A stretch of DNA of 39,190 bases from an uncultured Opitutia bacterium (lineage in GTDB: Bacteria; Verrucomicrobiota; Verrucomicrobiia; Opitutales; Opitutaceae): NCBI GenBank assembly GCA_903830425.1, contig CAIKTR010000093.1:1-39190 (forward strand), given 5' to 3'. Under the pieces are notes generated by a model. It searched no databases. It saw only the letters and a list, made by a program, of their open reading frames with translations, and was not told the DNA's origin. How positions within the stretch are numbered: position 1 is the first letter of the stretch; every line of letters starts with the position of its first letter. A program made the position numbers and the translations under genes. Below are positions 12,320-21,439 of this stretch, piece after piece.

Positions 12320-14086
12320 CTAGGCGGGCAGCAGGCGCACGCCGACGATCAGCGGCGAGAGGTCGTCCCAGAGCGGCCTTTCCTTGGGCGGCGGCAGGAT
12401 TTTGTCGAGGTGCAGGCGCAGCGTGAGCTCGCCGGCGGCGGCCACGTGCAGCCGCCCCATCCGGGTGGCGAGGCGCGGGAAGTAGGCGGCCTGGGCGTAG
12501 GGGATCTCCGCGTCGCGGGTGAGCACGTGGCGCAAGGTCTGACCGGCGGCCTCGATGCGGGCGGTGTGGCCCCCGCTCCACGGCTCGAGATGCTGGTGGG
12601 TGGTGATGACCTCGACCGTGAAGTCGCCGGGCGCCAGCACGGTGGCGCGCCACTCCAGCCAGTCGGCGGGGCGCGTCCAGCGGAGCGTGAGCCCGAGCGG
12701 CGAGAGGCCCAGTTTGGCGCGGGTGGGCCGGACCCGGGCCTCGCCGGAGAGCAGCGTGAGCGTGCGATCGGGTTCCTGGATGGGGCCGGGGACGACGGCG
12801 GGCGCCGCGGCGAGGTGCAGGGCGACCACGGTGACGGGCGCGGTGAAGCGCAGGGTGGCGCAGTCGAGCCGCAGCACGGGGGTGCCGGTGGCGGGGTCGA
12901 GGCCCTGGGCGACCGGGATTTTTTTTCCGGGGGCGAGGAGCGGCGCCGCGGTGCGGACCCGGGTGCGCAGGCCGCGGAGCTCGAAGTGGCGCGGGGGACG
13001 GGAGAAGAAATGCAGGTAGAGCACCCGCCCCCGGGTGGTCATGCGCCCCCAGGGGAAGTCGTGGGCGAAGGGCGAAGGCGCGGTGCCGTAGACGGACGCG
13101 CCGTTGGCCCGCAGCCAGCGGCCGATGGCGCGCAGGCGCGTCGCGCTGGGGCCGGGCACGCGGCCCTCCGCGTCCGGGCCGATGTTGAGGAGGTAGTTGG
13201 AGTTCTTGCTGGCGGACTCGACGAGCGTCTGGATGAGCCGCCCGGCGGGTTTCCACGCGTGGTCGTGGCGCTTGAAGCCCCAGGTATGGTTGAGGGTGGC
13301 GCACACCTCCCAGTCGCCGGTGGGGCGCCCGGGCGGGATCTGGTTGTCCCGCGGGATGCCGTAGTCGCCCAGCCCATGGCCGATGCGGCCGGAGACGAGG
13401 CAGCGCGGCTGGAGGCGCTTGACGAAGCGCCGGATGGCCGCGGCGTGCGCCCGGGTGATGGTGAGCGGGGTGTCGAACCAGATGAGGCCGACCGGGCCGT
13501 AGCGGGTGAGCAGCTCGCGGAGCTGGGGGTAGACCTTGGTGCGGAGGTAGCGGCCGGTGTCCTTCTTCGCGGCGGCGAAGTCCCAGGTGTTCCACGCGCC
13601 GTCGGGGTGATGCCAGTCCAGGTCCTGCGAGTAGTAGAAGCAGAGGGTCACGCCCTGCCGCCGGCACTCGCGCGCGAGGTCGGCGAGCGGGTCGTGGTGC
13701 CACGGCGTGGCGTCGACGACGTTGTACGGGCTGGACGCCGAGTGGTACATGGCGAAGCCCTCGTGGTGCTTGGCGGTGATGACGAGGTAGCGCTGGCCGG
13801 CCTCCCGGGCGAGGCGGACGATGGCGGCGGCGTCGAAGTGGCGGGGATGAAAGCGCGTGGCCAGCTGGGCGTAGTCGGCGACGGGAACCTTCTTGGAGAA
13901 CATGAGCCACTCGCCGATGCCGGGGACGCGCTCGCCCCGCCAGACGCCGGCGGGGAGGGCGTAGAGGCCCCAGTGGATGAAGAGGCCGAAGCGGGCCTCG
14001 CGCCACCAGCGGAGGGGGTCGCGGGCGGAGCCGGGCCGGGGCAGCCGGGTGGTTTGACGGAGGGTGGAGGGGTCGCGGCGGGGCAT
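12320..14086 (-). CDS. GH29 alpha-L-fucosidase, without signal peptide
   Basis: The 588-residue product has the GH29 barrel hallmarks in order. These are A-R-F-G-L-F-I-H-W-G-L-Y at about 31-42, the His pair in T-A-K-H-H-E-G-F (104-111), Y-Y-S-Q-D-L-D-W-H (151-159), and L-I-W-F-D with nucleophile Asp205. The segment N-S-N-Y-L-L-N-I-G-P-D closes the barrel. A C-terminal beta-sandwich region (about 370-588) follows and is longer than in minimal enzymes. There is no signal peptide, so it would hydrolyse fucosides after uptake. No transporter, fucose catabolic gene or sulfatase lies nearby, so this is not a polysaccharide utilisation locus. The gene sits 53 bp downstream of the M48 protease gene. 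Family call is firm; linkage specificity unknown. Confidence 0.92.
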   Translation of the reverse strand: MPRRDPSTLRQTTRLPRPGSARDPLRWWREARFGLFIHWGLYALPAGVWRGERVPGIGEWLMFSKKVPVADYAQLATRFHPRHFDAAAIVRLAREAGQRYLVITAKHHEGFAMYHSASSPYNVVDATPWHHDPLADLARECRRQGVTLCFYYSQDLDWHHPDGAWNTWDFAAAKKDTGRYLRTKVYPQLRELLTRYGPVGLIWFDTPLTITRAHAAAIRRFVKRLQPRCLVSGRIGHGLGDYGIPRDNQIPPGRPTGDWEVCATLNHTWGFKRHDHAWKPAGRLIQTLVESASKNSNYLLNIGPDAEGRVPGPSATRLRAIGRWLRANGASVYGTAPSPFAHDFPWGRMTTRGRVLYLHFFSRPPRHFELRGLRTRVRTAAPLLAPGKKIPVAQGLDPATGTPVLRLDCATLRFTAPVTVVALHLAAAPAVVPGPIQEPDRTLTLLSGEARVRPTRAKLGLSPLGLTLRWTRPADWLEWRATVLAPGDFTVEVITTHQHLEPWSGGHTARIEAAGQTLRHVLTRDAEIPYAQAAYFPRLATRMGRLHVAAAGELTLRLHLDKILPPPKERPLWDDLSPLIVGVRLLPA

Positions 14087-14139: not shown

Positions 14140-16107
14140 TCAGGCGGCGGCCAGCGGCGGCATCGGGCAGTCGAGGGCGGCGGCGACGGCGCGGAGCAGC
14201 TCGGCCTCGGCGACGAGGATGCGGCCGTCGGCGCCCACCAGGTGGGCGCAGGCGAGGAGCAGCCGCTGCTTGATCGGGCCGCTGGCCGACGCGAGCTTGT
14301 CGAGGGCCGCGTCGAGCCGCCCCAGATCGCAGTCGGCGGGCGGGAGCAGCACGAGCTGTCCCGCGATGAGCTTCAGCTGCGCGGCCCCGGCGGCGAAGGC
14401 GCCGGCGGCGCCCATTCCGTCATTGCTGGCGGCGTGGGCGAGCGCGGAGAGCACGAGGCTGATCTCGGCCACGACGGCGTTGAACGAGTAGACCTGCACG
14501 ACCCCGGCCTGCGGGGTGCGGCCCAGCGCGAGGGTCCGGGTGAGGAGCTTGAGCAGCGCAAACTCGAAGGTGGAGACGCGGCCGTCGGCGTGGACGAGTT
14601 CATCCAGGGTGCCGAGGAACGGCGGGAGCGCCGCGGGCGGGAGCTGGCGGAGGGCGGGCAGGGTGAGCTGGAGCAGCGGCAGCCGGTGTTCCGGGCCCAG
14701 CTGGCGGAGGGCGGGGTCGAGCTCGTCGAGCGTGCCGAGCGCCGCGGGGCCGGCGCCGCTGGCAACCAGGGCGCGCTGGCGCTCCCGCAGGGCGGGCTGG
14801 GAATCGAGCAGGAGGCCGTAGACCATGACGCCCGCCTCGGTGGGGGAGCGGACGGCCGCGCGCAGGCGGGCCGGCACGGAGGCGAGCAGGGACTCGGCGT
14901 GGGCGATGGTCTCGGGTGAGAGGACGCCGATGCTGGCGACGAAGGCCGCGGGGGTGGGCGGCGCGGCGGGGATGAGCGGGGGCTGGCGGAGGGCGCCGGG
15001 CGCGAAGCCGGCGGTGGCAAAGGACTCGCGGGCGACGTCGACGACCTCGGGCGGGTCATACATCCGGCCGTCGAACTGGGGGTCGATGGCGCGGATGCGC
15101 TGGTCGAGCGGCGGGTGGGTGGCCCAGAGCCCGCCGAAGCTCGAGGCGAAGCCCTGGGCAAAAAAGAAGTGGCCGATGGCGGCGCTCTTGTTCGAGGCGA
15201 GGGAGGAGCCGAGGGCGAAGCCGCCGATTTTCCGCAGCGCGCCGGTCAGCCCGGCGGGATTGCGCGTGAACTGCACGGCCGAGGCATCGGCCAGAAACTC
15301 GCGCTGGCGGGAGACCGCGGCCTGGATGAGCCGGCCGAAGAAGTAGCCCACGTACCCGACCAGGAGCAGGGCCAGGCCGACGGCGGCGATCGCGATGACG
15401 GCGCCGCCGGAATTCTTGTCGCTGCGCACCCGGCCGCGCAGGGTTGCCCACAGGATGCCCCGGCCGGCCAGCCCGATCACGAGGATGCCGAAGATCAGCG
15501 CGCTCAGCCGGAGGTTGAGGCGCATGTCGCCATTGAGAATGTGGCTGAACTCGTGGCCGATGACGCCCTGCAGCTCGTCCCGGGTGAGCTTCTCCAGGGT
15601 GCCGCGGGTGACCGCGACCACCGCGTCGCTGGTGGTGAGCCCGGCCGCGAAGGCGTTGAGGGAGGGCTCCTCGTCCAGCACGTAGACCGTCGGCATGGGG
15701 ATGCCGGAGGCGATGGACATCTCCTCGACGACGTTGAGCAGGCGGCGTTCCTTGAGCTCGAGGGTATGCGGATCGATGCGGCGCCCGCCGACGCTCTCGG
15801 CCACGGCGGAGCCCCCGACGGAAAATTCCCGCCACTTGAACAGTGAAGCGAGCCCGACCACGGCGAGGGTGCCGAGGGCCACGGGGAAGAAGATCTGCGG
15901 CTGCCAGAGCCGCGGGCCGGCGGCGGCCGCGGCGGCGGCGGGGTCGTCGGAGGGGTGGTGGCGCCGGCTGCGCCCGGACAGCTGGGCGAGGAGGAAGAGC
16001 GACGCGAAGTAGCTGGCGGCGATGGTGCCGGCGACCGCGACCGCGAAGAGACCGACGAGGCGGGAGGTGCGCTGCTTGGCGTGGACCTGGGCTTCGAAGA
16101 AATCCAT
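14140..16107 (-). CDS. M48-family (HtpX-like) membrane metalloprotease with C-terminal TerB-like region
   Basis: The 655-residue product is about twice the length of HtpX. It has N-terminal membrane spans at about 17-42 and 71-90. The zinc motif H-E-F-S-H is at 185-189, spans follow at about 201-222 and 235-258, and the third zinc ligand Glu270 lies in R-Q-R-E-F-L-A-D. W-A-T-H-P-P-L-D-Q-R-I-x-A-I follows at about 330, as in the family. The remaining 300 residues are Ala/Leu-rich helices with two copies of an acidic L-V-x-A-D-G-R-x-S/L motif (near 531 and 628) resembling TerB/tellurite-resistance-like domains. It follows lemA, a recurrent M48 partner. It probably takes part in membrane-protein quality control; the role of the tail is unknown. 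Confidence 0.88.
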   Translation of the reverse strand: MDFFEAQVHAKQRTSRLVGLFAVAVAGTIAASYFASLFLLAQLSGRSRRHHPSDDPAAAAAAAGPRLWQPQIFFPVALGTLAVVGLASLFKWREFSVGGSAVAESVGGRRIDPHTLELKERRLLNVVEEMSIASGIPMPTVYVLDEEPSLNAFAAGLTTSDAVVAVTRGTLEKLTRDELQGVIGHEFSHILNGDMRLNLRLSALIFGILVIGLAGRGILWATLRGRVRSDKNSGGAVIAIAAVGLALLLVGYVGYFFGRLIQAAVSRQREFLADASAVQFTRNPAGLTGALRKIGGFALGSSLASNKSAAIGHFFFAQGFASSFGGLWATHPPLDQRIRAIDPQFDGRMYDPPEVVDVARESFATAGFAPGALRQPPLIPAAPPTPAAFVASIGVLSPETIAHAESLLASVPARLRAAVRSPTEAGVMVYGLLLDSQPALRERQRALVASGAGPAALGTLDELDPALRQLGPEHRLPLLQLTLPALRQLPPAALPPFLGTLDELVHADGRVSTFEFALLKLLTRTLALGRTPQAGVVQVYSFNAVVAEISLVLSALAHAASNDGMGAAGAFAAGAAQLKLIAGQLVLLPPADCDLGRLDAALDKLASASGPIKQRLLLACAHLVGADGRILVAEAELLRAVAAALDCPMPPLAAA

Positions 16108-16180
16108 CGCGAGGTCGGCCGGGGTGGGCGGCGGGCGGAACCGGCGGCCGGCGCGGGTCGGCGGCCGGCCGCGGGCGCGC

Positions 16181-16783
16181 TCAGGTGAACTGAACCTTGG
16201 GCGCCGAGCGCTCCGTCGGGTCTTCGATCTTGAAGAGCTCGGCCGGCAGGAAGCCGAACAGGCCGGCGAAGATCACATTGGGGAACGTCTCGCGCGTCGT
16301 GTTGTAGGTCATGACGCTGTCGTTGTAGGCCTGGCGGGCGAAGGAGACCTTGTTCTCGGTGGCGGTGAGCTCCTCGGTGAGCTGCATCATGTTCTGGTTG
16401 GCCTTGAGGTCCGGGTACTGCTCGGAAACCACCATCAGGCGGCTGAGCGCGCCGGAGAGGCCGCTTTCCGCGGAGAGGAGGCCCTTGACGGCGTTGGCAT
16501 CGGCGGGGTTGGCCGCGGCGGACTGCGAGGCGGCGAGGGCGATGTTGCGCGCCTTGATCACGGCCTCGAGCGTGCTGCTCTCGTGCTTGAGGTAGCCCTT
16601 GGCCACTTCCACGAGGTTGGGGATGAGGTCGTAGCGCCGCTTGAGCTGCACATCGATCTGGGCGAAGGCGTTCTTGAAGCGGTTGCGCAAGGCGACCAGG
16701 GCATTGTAAATGCCCGCGATCCAGAGGCTGAGGATGACGACGAGGGCGAGCAGCGCGAGGAGGACGATGAGGACGGGGGTCAT
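16181..16783 (-). CDS. lemA: LemA-family membrane protein
   Basis: The 200-residue product has one N-terminal membrane span (about residues 4-25), then a helical-bundle domain with the family signature: Y-N-x-L-V-A-L-R-N-R-x-K-N-A-F-A-Q-I-D-V-Q-L-K-R-R-Y-D-L-I-P-N-L-V. Later it has Y-P-D-L-K-A-N and the conserved Y-N-D-S-V-M-T-Y-N. The start ATG (16781-16783) excludes a long unrelated N-terminal extension. LemA proteins are anchored with the bulk outside the cytoplasm or at the membrane face; a role with M48 proteases is inferred from their frequent adjacency. The M48 gene begins 73 bp downstream in the same direction. The gene is divergent from the TPR gene, with a 124-bp shared upstream region. 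Confidence 0.93.
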   Translation of the reverse strand: MTPVLIVLLALLALVVILSLWIAGIYNALVALRNRFKNAFAQIDVQLKRRYDLIPNLVEVAKGYLKHESSTLEAVIKARNIALAASQSAAANPADANAVKGLLSAESGLSGALSRLMVVSEQYPDLKANQNMMQLTEELTATENKVSFARQAYNDSVMTYNTTRETFPNVIFAGLFGFLPAELFKIEDPTERSAPKVQFT

Positions 16784-16907
16784 GGGTGGAGGGGGATGAG
16801 GCTTAGCGGAATCGAGCATGGCGAGGGAACCGCGGCGCGCCAGAAGGAACTGTTTACAACGCGGTTGATTGTTTCCATGGGGAGCGGCAACTTGGCCGCG
16901 TCTTCGC

Positions 16908-19541
16908 ATGCGCCGCCGATTCCTTCCTGCCCTCCTGCTGACCCTCGCGGTGGCCCTGCGCGCGCAGGGGCCGCTGAATCCGCCCGTGCCCCTCCTGACG
17001 GTCAGCCCGCAGGCGTCGCCGGGGGAAAACGCGCTGCAGCTCGCGGCGGCGGACCGGGCGCAGGAGCTGGGTTTTCCCACGCTGGCCGCGGGCCTCTATC
17101 GGAACCTGCTGGCGGCGGGCGGGGGCGACCGGGGCCGGCTGGTGCTCGGGCTGGCGACGGCGCTGCTGGACGACGGCCGGGCCGCCGAGGCCGAGCAGGC
17201 GCTGCAGGGCTTCCCCGGACCCCGCGGCGCCGCCTGGCGCCTGCGCCGCGCGCTCGCGGCCGCCGAGCAGCAGCAGCCCGCCGTCGCCAAGGCCGAGCTG
17301 GCCACCCTCAAGCCCGAGGAACTGAGTGCGACGGACCGCGCCTGGTACCACTACCTGCAGGGCCAGGTGGCGGAGGCGGCGAACGACTGGAACCGCGCCA
17401 AGGAGTTTTACCAGCAGGCCGAGGGCGCCGCCCGGAACAATCTCGCCCGGGCGCGCTTCGTGCTGCTCCGGGAGCAGGCGCGCCTGCGCCTCGGGCCCGT
17501 CACCGAGGCGGAGGCGGAGGTGCAGCGCAAGAACCTGGAGCAGTTTCAAGGCCGCAAGATCAGCTACGGGATCGCGCGCACCTACGCCACCATGCTGGAC
17601 ACGCTCGGCCGCAAGTCCGAGGCGGTCGCGCTGCTGCAGCGCCAGCTCGCGGCGATCATCCCGCTGGTGGAGCGCGACGAGCTGGACACCACCCGGCTGG
17701 TGCTGGGCCTGATGGCCGGCGCCACCGAGGGAGTGGGGCGCAACGCCCTCGGCGAGCTCCTGCGCGACGGCACCGACCGCGACAAGCAGCGCGTCGCGCT
17801 CCAGTTGCTGGCCCGGGCCTCGGTGCGCGAGCCGGCGCGCGCCGATTTCCGGCGGCGGCTGGACGGCCTGATCGGCCTGTCGACGCCGCATCCCATCCTG
17901 GAGGACCTGCTCCTGTTCCGGGCGGTGCAGGCGCTGGCGGACAAGAACTATGCGCTGGCGGAGGATGACGCGCGGGCGCTGCTGCAGAAATTTCCCGGCT
18001 CGCCCCTCAAGGCGCACGCGCTGGGCGTGCTGACCGCGTCCGCCTGGGAGCAGGTGCGGTATCGGACGGCGGCGGATTACGCGGGCAAGGCCCGGGCGGA
18101 GCTGCCGGCCGGGCCCGCGCATGCGCAACTCGGCGTGCTGGTGGCCGAGGCGTGGTTCCGCGCGCGGGATTTCCGCAACGCGGCCGAGGCTTATGCCGCG
18201 GCACTGAGCGAGCCGTCGCCCGGCGTGGCCAAGGGCGACCTGATGTTCCAGCGGGTGCTGGCGGAAATCGAGGCCGGGTCGCTCGCCGCCGCCCAACGGG
18301 TGCTGGACGAGCTGGCCAAGGATCCGGCCTTTGACGCGGTCAACCTCTGGCAGGCGGAGTGGAATCTCGCGCGGGCCCTGCAGGTGCAGGACCAGACGCC
18401 GGCCGCCTATGCGCGGGTCAACCGGCTGCTGGGGGCGACGCGCCCCGCCGCGGGGCAACTCTCGCCGGAACTGCGCGCCCGGATGGCCTGGCTGCAGGCC
18501 AGCCTGTCGCTCAAGGCGGGGCAGGCGGAGCAGACCCTGAGGCTGGTCGACGCGCTGCCGGCCTCGCTGGACGGCGTCTCGCCGGAACTGCGGCGGGAAA
18601 TCACCAGCACGAGCGCGCTGCTGAAGGGCCGGGCGAGCTTTGACCTGGGGCGCGCGGCGGCGGCGCTGGAGCTGCTGAAGAAGCTGCGCGCGGACTTTCC
18701 CCGTTCGGACGCCGCGGTCTACTCCTATTTCGACGAGGCGAGGTACTACGACCAGCAGGACAAGACGGTGGAGGCGCAGCAGCTGCTGACCCGGCTGGCC
18801 GATGAGTTCTCGGGCAACCCCTATGCGCCGTACGCCCTCTATCAGGCGGCGCTCCAGGCCGAGCGCCGCGGGCAGGAAGCCAACCTGGCCGAGGCCAACC
18901 GGCTGATCGAGGACCTGGTGAACAAGTACCCGCAGAGCGACCTCGTGTTTTATGCGCGGCTCAAGCAGGGCGACCTGCTGCGGAAGCTCAACCAGTTCCA
19001 GCAGGCGCAGCAGGTCTACGAGTCGCTGGTGAACAACTATGCGCAGCACCAGGAGGTGACCCTGGCGCAGCTGGCGTTGGCCGAGTGCCACCATGCGCAG
19101 GCGGCGGGCGACCCGGCCCATGCCGAGAGCGCCACGGTGCTGTTCGAGCATTTGCGCGACCGGATGGACGCGCCGGTGGACGTCCGCGTCGAGGCCGGCT
19201 TCAATCTGGGCTATCTCTATGTGCGCCGCAGCGCCACCGCCCGGGAGGGGGGAGACCGGGTGCGGGAGCAGGAGAACACCGCCCGGGCCCTGGAGGTGTG
19301 GTGGAAGGACGTGGTGCACGAGTTTCTGGTCAAGGACCCGGCGGTGGCGGCGCAGCTGGGGGCGAAGGGCCGCTACTGGATGGCGCGCACGCTGCTGGAA
19401 CTCGGGGCGCTGTTTGAGCGGCAGGAAAAACTCGAGCAGGCGCGGGAGGCGTGGCGGCTGATCCTGAAGTTTGGGCTGCCGGGCGGGGAGGTGGCGCAGG
19501 CGCGCCTCGCCCGCTTTGATCCCCCCGAGGCCAAGCCATGA
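16908..19541 (+). CDS. Large secreted TPR protein, first gene of the ExbB/ExbD-like module
   Basis: From ATG 16908 the product has 877 residues and begins with a signal peptide (MRRRFLPALLLTLAVALRAQ), so it is periplasmic or outer-membrane associated. The remainder is almost wholly helical, with repeated 34-residue-type TPR units. The clearest units are in the 570-760 region (for example A-L-Y-Q-A-A-L-Q-A-E-R-R-G and R-L-K-Q-G-D-L-L-R-K-L-N-Q-F-Q-Q-A-Q-Q-V-Y-E-S-L). These resemble the BamD/YbgF-like TPRs of envelope proteins. It is followed after 64 bp by the ExbB-like gene in the same orientation. Envelope TPR proteins encoded with ExbB/ExbD (for example TtpC beside TonB2 systems) act as partners of the energising complex; the same role is inferred here. 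An upstream ATG (16869) would mask the signal peptide. Confidence 0.82.
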   Translation: MRRRFLPALLLTLAVALRAQGPLNPPVPLLTVSPQASPGENALQLAAADRAQELGFPTLAAGLYRNLLAAGGGDRGRLVLGLATALLDDGRAAEAEQALQGFPGPRGAAWRLRRALAAAEQQQPAVAKAELATLKPEELSATDRAWYHYLQGQVAEAANDWNRAKEFYQQAEGAARNNLARARFVLLREQARLRLGPVTEAEAEVQRKNLEQFQGRKISYGIARTYATMLDTLGRKSEAVALLQRQLAAIIPLVERDELDTTRLVLGLMAGATEGVGRNALGELLRDGTDRDKQRVALQLLARASVREPARADFRRRLDGLIGLSTPHPILEDLLLFRAVQALADKNYALAEDDARALLQKFPGSPLKAHALGVLTASAWEQVRYRTAADYAGKARAELPAGPAHAQLGVLVAEAWFRARDFRNAAEAYAAALSEPSPGVAKGDLMFQRVLAEIEAGSLAAAQRVLDELAKDPAFDAVNLWQAEWNLARALQVQDQTPAAYARVNRLLGATRPAAGQLSPELRARMAWLQASLSLKAGQAEQTLRLVDALPASLDGVSPELRREITSTSALLKGRASFDLGRAAAALELLKKLRADFPRSDAAVYSYFDEARYYDQQDKTVEAQQLLTRLADEFSGNPYAPYALYQAALQAERRGQEANLAEANRLIEDLVNKYPQSDLVFYARLKQGDLLRKLNQFQQAQQVYESLVNNYAQHQEVTLAQLALAECHHAQAAGDPAHAESATVLFEHLRDRMDAPVDVRVEAGFNLGYLYVRRSATAREGGDRVREQENTARALEVWWKDVVHEFLVKDPAVAAQLGAKGRYWMARTLLELGALFERQEKLEQAREAWRLILKFGLPGGEVAQARLARFDPPEAKP

Positions 19542-19605: not shown

Positions 19606-20268
19606 ATGTCCGCGCTCGACTTCAGTCTTTTTGCCCGGGGTGGCCCGATGATGTGGGTGCTGCTGGCGCTCGGCCTGCTGGGGCTGATCCTCTTCATCGA
19701 GCGCACCCTGTATCTTCATCGCGGGCAGATCCGCTCGACGGCGTTCATCGGCGGGATCAAGAACATCCTCGCCAAGCGCCGGATCGTCGAGGCGCTCACG
19801 GTGTGCGAGGAAACGCCGGGGCCCGTGGCGGCGGTCGTCAAGGCGGCGCTGCTGCATGCGGACGACGACGCGGACGCGATGCGTTTCCATGTGCAGGAGG
19901 CCGCCGTCGTCGAGCTGCCCGCCCTGGAGCGCCGGCTGGCCAGCCTCGCGGCCCTGGCGCAGGTGGCCCCGCTGGTGGGCCTGCTCGGCACGGTGCTGGG
20001 CATGATCGAGACGTTTTTCGCCTTTGAGAAGGGGGGCAACTACGCGATGGGGAGCGCCCTGTCGGGCGGCATGTGGCAGGCGCTGCTCAGCGTGGCGGGC
20101 AGCCTGATGCTCGCCATCCCCGCGCACCTGGCCCACCACTTTCTCAGCGGCCGGGTCCGGGCGATCGTCCGCGACATCGAGTGGGCCGGGAATGAAATCA
20201 TGAAGTACCTGCTGACCGAGTACCGCGGTCCCGGGGCGTCCAAGGGTGGGGCGGAGGGGGCGCAGTGA
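19606..20268 (+). CDS. ExbB/TolQ/MotA-family inner-membrane protein with altered pore residues
   Basis: The 220-residue product has three membrane spans, at about 15-31, 113-137 and 157-180. The signature A-P-L-V-G-L-L-G-T-V-L-G-M (121-133) keeps the Thr equivalent to E. coli ExbB Thr148 (here Thr129). In the third span, E. coli E-A-L-L-A-T aligns with Q-A-L-L-S-V (158-163), so Glu176 becomes Gln158 and Thr181 becomes Val163. The following A-I-P-A is conserved and anchors the alignment. ExbB forms the pentameric shell around ExbD that normally conducts protons. The start ATG at 19606 is chosen because upstream codons overlap the TPR gene. Its stop overlaps the next GTG by 4 bases. Confidence 0.88.
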   Translation: MSALDFSLFARGGPMMWVLLALGLLGLILFIERTLYLHRGQIRSTAFIGGIKNILAKRRIVEALTVCEETPGPVAAVVKAALLHADDDADAMRFHVQEAAVVELPALERRLASLAALAQVAPLVGLLGTVLGMIETFFAFEKGGNYAMGSALSGGMWQALLSVAGSLMLAIPAHLAHHFLSGRVRAIVRDIEWAGNEIMKYLLTEYRGPGASKGGAEGAQ

Positions 20269-20714
20269 TCACCCGTCCGCTGGATCTGGCCTCCCGGCTG
20301 CGGCCCGAGCCGCGGAACTTCGACACGCTCTTCTTTGTGAACGGGGGCCTCCTCGGGCTGTTTTTCATGCTGTTTGGCTCGCAGCTGGTGCTCGCGCCGG
20401 GGCTCGGTGTGGACTTCAAGCTGCCGGAGATGCCGGGGTCGCTGGTGAACGCCACGGCCACGACCAGCACGATCAGCGTCAAGAACTCCGGCCAGATTTT
20501 CGCGGACGGCCTGCTCACCATGGAGCAGCTGCGCGAGTGGCTGAAGAGCGAGGCCCGGAAAACCAAGCGCCCCTCCTTGCTCGTCCGCATGAGCGCCGGG
20601 GTGCCGGTCTCGGTACAGAACAGCATTGTCGGCGCGGCGCGGGAAGCTGGCTTCGGGTCTAGCATCGTGCTCGCCTCCGAGGAGCCGAGTGGCGATGCTT
20701 CCCGTAGCCGCTGA
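20265..20714 (+). CDS. ExbD/TolR-like protein lacking the membrane Asp
   Basis: The 149-residue product starts at GTG 20265, overlapping the exbB stop. It has a short cytoplasmic N-terminus, one membrane span (about 21-44) and a periplasmic domain. The segment F-F-V-N-G-G-L-L-G-L-F-F-M, followed by P-G-L-G-V-D-F-K-L-P, lines up with the family pattern P-L-I-D-V-V-F-L-L-L-I-F-F-M ... P-G-I-D-V-x-L-P. Asn26 falls on the conserved proton-carrying Asp (E. coli Asp25). The only nearby acidic residue, Asp20, lies at the membrane edge. The periplasmic part matches ExbD/TolR (D-G-x-x-x-x-x-x-L, then V-R-M-S-A and a C-terminal helix). The family call is good; whether it supports proton flow is doubtful. 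Confidence 0.82.
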   Translation: MITRPLDLASRLRPEPRNFDTLFFVNGGLLGLFFMLFGSQLVLAPGLGVDFKLPEMPGSLVNATATTSTISVKNSGQIFADGLLTMEQLREWLKSEARKTKRPSLLVRMSAGVPVSVQNSIVGAAREAGFGSSIVLASEEPSGDASRSR

Positions 20715-20716
20715 TA

Positions 20717-21439
20717 ATGAATATATTAACTGGAAACCGGGGCAGGTGGTCCTTGGCGGTGGCGGGCGGATTGGTCATGCTGGGCCTGGTGGCGTTCCTC
20801 TTTCGCGCGCCGCCGGGGGGAGTGAGGCCGGTTAAGATACTATCGCGGCCGCCGCCGGCTGGCCCCGTCAGTTTAGTGAACCTGCGGGAAAATGAGGCTG
20901 CGCTGACGGATCCGACCCCTCTTTTTTTACCAACCAAATGGAATGCGGGTCAAAACGCCCTGCCAGCCAACGCCCAGCGTGAACCCGATACGGTGTTTGC
21001 CGGCTATCCGGCCAAGCTAAAATACGCCGAGAACGAATTGGGACTCGATTTCCCGGCCGACATCGCCGTCCCGATGACCCCGGCGCACGCTCTTTCCTCA
21101 GGCAAGCCAGACCAGATGTTTATCGGGTTGGACTACGGGAATAATGAAGTTAAGCAACTTATTGAAAGAAAAGGGTATGTAGAAATAACGACCGCAAAAA
21201 ACGGGCGCCGGGTGCTGGTCCAGTCGTTGGCGGATGCCCGGCCGCCTGAAGGGAAAGGGTGGCAGCCCATGGAGTTTTTGGTGGCGGTGGACCCCATGGG
21301 TCTGGTGGGTCCGCCGATTCTTACCGAGAGTTCTCGTGTTACGGCGGTGGACGGTTACTTTCAGAACTACCTAGTTAAAACGCTTCGCGCTGGCGAGCGA
21401 CTCTCCCCGGGATTTTATCGGATATGCGTTGGACCGTAG
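20717..21439 (+). CDS. Single-pass protein with TonB-like C-terminus, last gene of the ExbB/ExbD-like module
   Basis: The 240-residue product has one membrane span (about 11-30), a short Pro-rich stretch (31-50) and a periplasmic domain. The end, from about residue 183, has the rhythm of a TonB C-terminal domain (x-E-F-L-V-A-V-D-P-M-G-L-V-G-P-P-x-L-x-E-S-S ... G-x-Y-R-I-C-V-G-P). The likeness is weak, so the call is tentative. The membrane span has no His equivalent to TonB His20. The gene begins 2 bp after the exbD stop. Parts of it, notably 21090-21200, are AT-richer than the neighbours. It could instead be a lineage-specific partner of unrelated fold. A tRNA-Thr gene starts 94 bp after the stop. 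Confidence 0.6.
   Translation: MNILTGNRGRWSLAVAGGLVMLGLVAFLFRAPPGGVRPVKILSRPPPAGPVSLVNLRENEAALTDPTPLFLPTKWNAGQNALPANAQREPDTVFAGYPAKLKYAENELGLDFPADIAVPMTPAHALSSGKPDQMFIGLDYGNNEVKQLIERKGYVEITTAKNGRRVLVQSLADARPPEGKGWQPMEFLVAVDPMGLVGPPILTESSRVTAVDGYFQNYLVKTLRAGERLSPGFYRICVGP

Follow-up and report, generated by a model that had tools for sequence, protein, structure and literature searches.

An Opitutaceae ExbB-ExbD-TonB/TolA-like cassette with asparagine at the proton-carrier position of ExbD

The window analysed here is a stretch of 39,190 nucleotides from an uncultured Opitutia bacterium of the family Opitutaceae (GenBank assembly GCA_903830425.1, contig CAIKTR010000093.1), and its forward strand carries a Ton/Tol-like gene cassette. 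The first gene (16869-19541) encodes a TPR protein with YbgF/CpoB- and BamD-like repeats, which Pfam TPR_6 matches above its cut-off and NCBIfam tol_pal_ybgF below its cut-off. It is followed by an ExbB/TolQ homologue (19606-20268), an ExbD/TolR homologue in which Asn26 replaces the proton-carrying Asp (20265-20714), and a TonB/TolA-like protein (20717-21439). The order TPR, ExbB, ExbD, TonB/TolA-like protein and tuf is conserved: among the named loci with enough flanking sequence, all 77 have the TPR gene upstream, and 58 of 59 have EF-Tu downstream. In the window's genus (12 loci), the median dN/dS was 0.155 for ExbB and 0.169 for ExbD (66 pairs each), and 0.185 for the TonB/TolA-like partner (49 unsaturated of 66 pairs). 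Taken together, the low dN/dS and the conserved cassette indicate that the gene set is maintained, and a pseudogene was rejected because of purifying selection and synteny. On the reverse strand, at 14140-16792 and 12320-14086, the window also holds a LemA gene next to a gene for a large peptidase of family M48 that has a borderline match to TerB, and then an alpha-L-fucosidase gene.

The ExbB protein has a MotA_ExbB domain (PF01618, E 1.6e-23) and a profile match to TolQ (8odt, E 1.5e-18). The ExbD reading frame encodes 149 amino acids from a GTG start, and overlaps the ExbB stop codon in the sequence GTGA. Pfam PF02472 (ExbD) scored 25.7 bits, just 0.3 above its cut-off of 25.4, with a match that begins at residue 32, past Asn26, so that Pfam alone leaves the helix unplaced. 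A profile of 31 rows (A1), made of ExbD relatives from the family, the order and the class, matched solved ExbD structures with E-values of 1.3e-19 (7ajq) and 5e-17 (6tyi), and TolR with 7.7e-11 (9ddm). The AF2 model built from A1 (mean pLDDT 82.8, pTM 0.57) shows a predicted helix spanning residues 21-38, with a periplasmic domain of the expected fold; the best five Foldseek matches of this domain were all ExbD (8pek with E 6.6e-5, and 8p9r, 8vgc and 8vgd among them), followed by TolR (5by4, E 4.7e-3). Judged by homology, ExbB and ExbD are clearly members of their families.

The Asp of ExbD, TolR and MotB is taken to define 5:2 ion-driven motors. In the profile alignment, the transmembrane helix of the window's ExbD lacks it: the column of Asn26 (codon AAC, 20340-20342; A1 profile position 19) falls on Asp25 of E. 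coli ExbD, within DINVTPFID. This is the placement made in the initial annotation, which had asked for a profile alignment to ExbD/TolR, and its view that the subunit is unable to bind a proton at the usual site is supported, with Asn occupying that position. Relatives from the same order have Asp in the Asn26 column and align without gaps up to the GSRFV/PG motif. Misalignment was rejected, since the Asp column is reached both gaplessly from close relatives and through the profile to solved ExbD. The initial annotation had also named Asp20 (codon 20322-20324, six residues before Asn26) as the only other acidic residue, which is true of the helix with its cytoplasmic border and not of the whole protein. 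Asp20 sits one residue ahead of the predicted helix start, and no alignment placed it in the Asp25 column, the outcome that had been named beforehand as decisive against the Asn26 assignment.

In ExbB, profile alignment to TolQ puts Gln158 (20077-20079) in the column of the canonical channel-entrance Glu (TolQ E173). The pair of pore Thr (TolQ T145 and T178) is incomplete: the first is retained as Thr129 (19990-19992), and the second is Val163 (20092-20094). PMC12583513 describes the TolQ E173 to Ala mutant as lethal, and in TolQR both pore Thr together are described as contacting the Asp. We compared these columns between family loci with Asp in ExbD (Asp-type) and those with another residue there (non-Asp). 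Gln fills the E173 column of 23 of 25 Asp-type loci and of 123 of 166 non-Asp loci, and Glu is found there in just 12 of 57 Asp-type rows from the phylum, hand-picked among the matches listed. Loss of the ExbB Glu as a specific companion of the Asp loss was rejected because Gln is already there in 23 of the 25 family loci of the Asp type; from these alignments the Glu seems widely dispensable in Verrucomicrobiota. While the first pore Thr is present in 25/25 Asp-type and 164/166 non-Asp family loci, the second is present in 25/25 Asp-type versus only 100/166 non-Asp loci (48 have Ala; Val in the window). Outside the family, in rows hand-picked among the matches listed, all 57 Asp rows have Thr or Ser at the second position, and 6 of the 38 non-Asp rows have Ala.

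The partner protein directly downstream of ExbD has 240 residues, with an N-terminal transmembrane helix (residues 7-28), a linker and a C-terminal domain (about 150-240). Pfam gave no match to it, and NCBIfam no real one. The AF2 model of the partner (pLDDT 75, pTM 0.43) is confident for the helix and the C-terminal domain only. When the C-terminal domain was compared with VIA-align, ranks 1-6 and 8 were TonB C-terminal domains, TolA domain III or HasB, all with Z below 8; the best row was 9ddz (Z 5.8, rmsd 2.4, 65 residues aligned), E. coli TonB (1xx3) had Z 5.0 and the best unrelated structure Z 3.8. Foldseek of the partner model gave no match under 0.001 (the best, TolA domain III, had E 0.38), and the sequence profile against TonB was not significant (E 0.55). 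Since all Z are below 8 and neither Foldseek nor the profile is significant, we name the protein TonB/TolA-like rather than TonB, and the model suggests that it likely belongs with TonB/TolA.

PMC8928145 and PMC12204202 describe the transmembrane His of TonB and TolA (SHLS motif) as required for motor engagement, and PMC11658791 describes E. coli ExbD(D25N) and TonB(H20A) as both inactive. In one column of the partner alignment, this His is found in every one of the 25 Asp-type family loci and in none of the 166 non-Asp loci, the window's partner included among those without it; the non-Asp loci carry Leu, Val, Ala, Gly, Phe, Thr and other residues there. Judged by alignment, the first ExbB Thr is the only marker residue of a proton-driven motor that the window has.

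We then consider how widely the Asn is found. Matches occur in 237 of the 252 genomes of the GTDB family and in 162 of its 165 good genomes, a few of the matches being paralogues (as in G381); the named relatives in this family are Opitutaceae or Opitutae. Of 205 loci fetched, three canonical paralogues (L107, L110, L111) and one that is not ExbD (L112) were removed, which left 201 orthologous loci from 200 genomes; one genome (G202) has two ExbD gene copies (L144 and L171), both counted. The residue in the Asp25 column of these loci is Asn in 169, Asp in 26, Ala in 4 and Ser in 2. A chance variant in a single assembly was rejected on this count. Ten of the 201 loci are without a complete partner gene, so that the tables of partner residues cover 25 Asp-type and 166 non-Asp loci. 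In the set of named genomes, which overlaps the family set in part, 79 of 80 fetched loci could be read, with 77 Asn and 2 Ser. Cultured bacteria that carry the Asn type include Cephaloticoccus primus, C. capnophilus and Geminisphaera colitermitum TAV2. As a control, paralogous ExbDs from nine family genomes, the window's own included, gave 60 distinct sequences, 59 of them with Asp, and two more loci had no alignment across the site. The sole non-Asp paralogue (L462, in G266) has Ser.

The initial annotation had held that close homologues with Asp would speak against its reading. Such relatives do exist (the 26 of 201 loci, in genera g122, g125, g128, g131, g132, g136 and g138-g140), and they are confined to one separate clade. 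In the ExbB tree, for which every fourth non-Asp family locus was kept (42 of 166, as in the dependence models below), the 25 Asp-type tips group in a clade of their own, as do the 42 non-Asp tips. Thus, a single change of the Asp suffices within the family, and on this tree the co-loss of Asp and His in the family is one evolutionary event. A basal position of the Asp-type members was rejected, since the tree places them in their own clade.

Beyond the family, we read the best-matching ExbD in 97 rows from the class and the phylum (98 minus the duplicate L348), hand-picked among the matches listed, 60 phylum stretches among the best such matches included, so that the proportions are not those of a random sample. 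In these 97 rows the site is Asp in 59, Asn in 30, Cys in 2, Ser in 2, and Gly, Leu, Ala and Thr in 1 each, and 23 of the 43 sampled families have a non-Asp member among these hand-picked matches. Replacements other than Asn (Gly, Cys, Leu, Ser, Ala, Thr) occur in single lineages (L041, L045, L054, L362, L385, L405, L406, L411). On the ExbB tree, parsimony places about 19 changes of the site outside the family and 20 in total.

The partner His could be scored in 92 of the 98 class and phylum rows, leaving out L348 (duplicate), L033, L053, L054 and L403 (no transmembrane partner found) and L377 (ambiguous, removed by hand). L030 was scored by hand as having no His, since the one it has falls past the helix; in 12 rows the reading frame was corrected by hand, and the partner of L380 is truncated by the contig end. 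Among these rows, hand-picked from the matches listed, the His is present in 42 of 56 Asp and 13 of 36 non-Asp rows (Fisher p 4e-4, uncorrected for ancestry), and the pairing is broken both ways, with 14 Asp rows without His and 13 non-Asp rows with it. When ancestry was modelled on 157 tips, the family included, a dependent model of Asp and His was preferred, both in the reversible form (LR 13.1, 4 df, p 0.011) and when losses alone were allowed (LR 6.5, 2 df, p 0.039; His loss rate 2.5 without Asp and 0.45 with Asp). In the 90 tips without the family, the link was not significant (p 0.20 in both models). On these trees, the family is therefore a striking single case, and outside it the link between Asp and His is only a trend.

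The window's genome has four further ExbB/MotA-type genes and four further ExbDs, all with Asp. Each of these ExbDs lies beside its own ExbB; three are near a TonB_C match, and TonB_C matches adjoin two of the loci, on contigs C25 and C199. TolB_N (PF04052) gave 0 matches at E 10 in this genome, which is 95% complete and has OmpA-type domains; thus the classical Tol-Pal set is not seen there. A further MotA_ExbB gene of the same genome (G000, contig C235:6714-7892; L424, L456) lies near an OmpA-domain gene, in the manner of a MotAB pair.

We propose that the cassette encodes a Ton/Tol-like complex whose proton coupling has been lost in the large Opitutaceae clade without the Asp and which is kept as a static structure, a reading that we hold to be somewhat more probable than its negation. 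With a neutral Asn, a partner without the motor-engaging His and a loosening ring of Thr, an unpowered complex is the simplest account, and the data favour the scaffold among the options of the initial annotation. ExbB and ExbD would still assemble, probably 5:2 as in their relatives, and the two neutral Asn in the pore would be a permanent mimic of the protonated state, in which protons could be neither taken up nor released. There would then be no proton-driven rotation or pulling. The complex may instead serve as a passive anchor that links the periplasmic domain of ExbD with the TonB-like domain and the TPR protein across the periplasm, and such a ring in the neutral state could tether the inner membrane, the wall and the outer membrane, which may be the reason for its retention. 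Proton-driven work would be left to the other ExbBD sets of the genome. Ala in 4 and Ser in 2 of the 201 loci indicate that small neutral residues are tolerated, and suggest that the site needs not even a carboxamide. On the other hand, four points from the alignments and the tree count against this explanation: the family co-loss is one event; outside the family the link between Asp and His is not significant once ancestry is modelled; position 20 is far more often acidic in the non-Asp loci, as a relocated proton site could explain; and most Asp-type relatives are also without the ExbB Glu, so that its loss is unspecific.

The main rival is a relocated proton site, with Asp or Glu at position 20, at the cytoplasmic border, replacing position 26 in a motor that is still proton-driven. 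Indeed, 147 of 166 non-Asp family loci have an acid at position 20, versus 4 of 25 Asp-type loci, so that the shift accompanies the loss of Asp26. However, the Asp-type loci mostly have Ser, Asn, Asp, Gly or Thr at position 20, and since the predicted helix starts at residue 21, a helix cap appears the likelier role. In addition, 16 of the 166 non-Asp proteins are free of acids across positions 17-45, including 3 with Ala26, and in this clade the partner lacks its His and the ExbB Thr is relaxed too. We therefore consider a relocated site unlikely.

More doubtful still is a mixed motor, in which the Asn-bearing ExbD pairs with an Asp-bearing ExbD of another locus to leave one proton site. The four other Asp-bearing ExbDs of the genome would make this feasible, and PMC12204202 describes PVC clusters with two different tolR-like genes. 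However, the cassette has its own ExbB and a single exbD, the other four ExbDs each lie beside their own ExbB, and without the TonB-type His the partner would still be disengaged. The same single exbD leaves unsupported the suggestion in the initial annotation that an extra subunit is needed, despite the Asp-bearing ExbDs elsewhere in the genome.

We give a slightly lower chance, and so regard as improbable, that the complex is a re-coupled machine driven by another ion or interaction partner instead of the proton. Purifying selection and retention across the family would fit such a machine, whereas the Ala and Ser found at the site do not, and sodium stators use the Asp as well. Different coupling had been another option of the initial annotation; the absence of the partner His and the relaxed second ExbB Thr in the non-Asp clade speak against mere re-coupling. 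A decaying gene without function would explain the lost motor residues, and is very improbable given the intact frame, an ExbD dN/dS of about 0.17 in 66 pairs, the flanking TPR and EF-Tu genes and the matches in nearly all good family genomes.

Compared with E. coli ExbB-ExbD-TonB and TolQ-TolR-TolA, the cassette shares homologous ExbB and ExbD, the gene order, and, in the VIA-align comparison, a C-terminal domain nearest to the TonB C-terminal domain and TolA domain III; with tol-pal it also shares the TPR protein. It differs in that the window is without the ExbD Asp, the ExbB Glu, the second Thr and the partner transmembrane His, and the genome without TolB_N. The nearest described arrangement that we have seen is the PVC cluster of PMC12204202 (TPR, tolQ-like, two tolR-like genes and a vWA transducer), which likewise has the TPR gene first, tolQ- and tolR-like genes and a tethered transducer, and occurs in Verrucomicrobia. 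As described there, its transducer carries a vWA domain and retains the His, whereas the window has one ExbD, a TonB/TolA-like domain and no His.

On a wider scale, we see an about even chance that the large family clade retains a Ton/Tol-like 5:2 complex no longer using the proton motive force, with the ExbD Asp and the TonB-type His both gone and the ExbB pore loosening, and that, with about 19 further Asp replacements in Verrucomicrobiota, 5:2 "motors" may repeatedly become static trans-envelope structures. In the open-access literature searched, we found no report of a naturally Asp-less ExbD/TolR. A natural and conserved set of this kind would separate the structural from the motor role of 5:2 complexes, and the sister clade, which retains the Asp, the His and the two Thr, provides a ready-made comparison pair. 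Annotating such genes as proton-channel parts would be wrong for the non-Asp clade. The laboratory mutants ExbD D25N and MotB D22N, the latter described as a protonation mimic in PMC9389320, carry the same Asp-to-Asn change, which here is natural and conserved in a clade.
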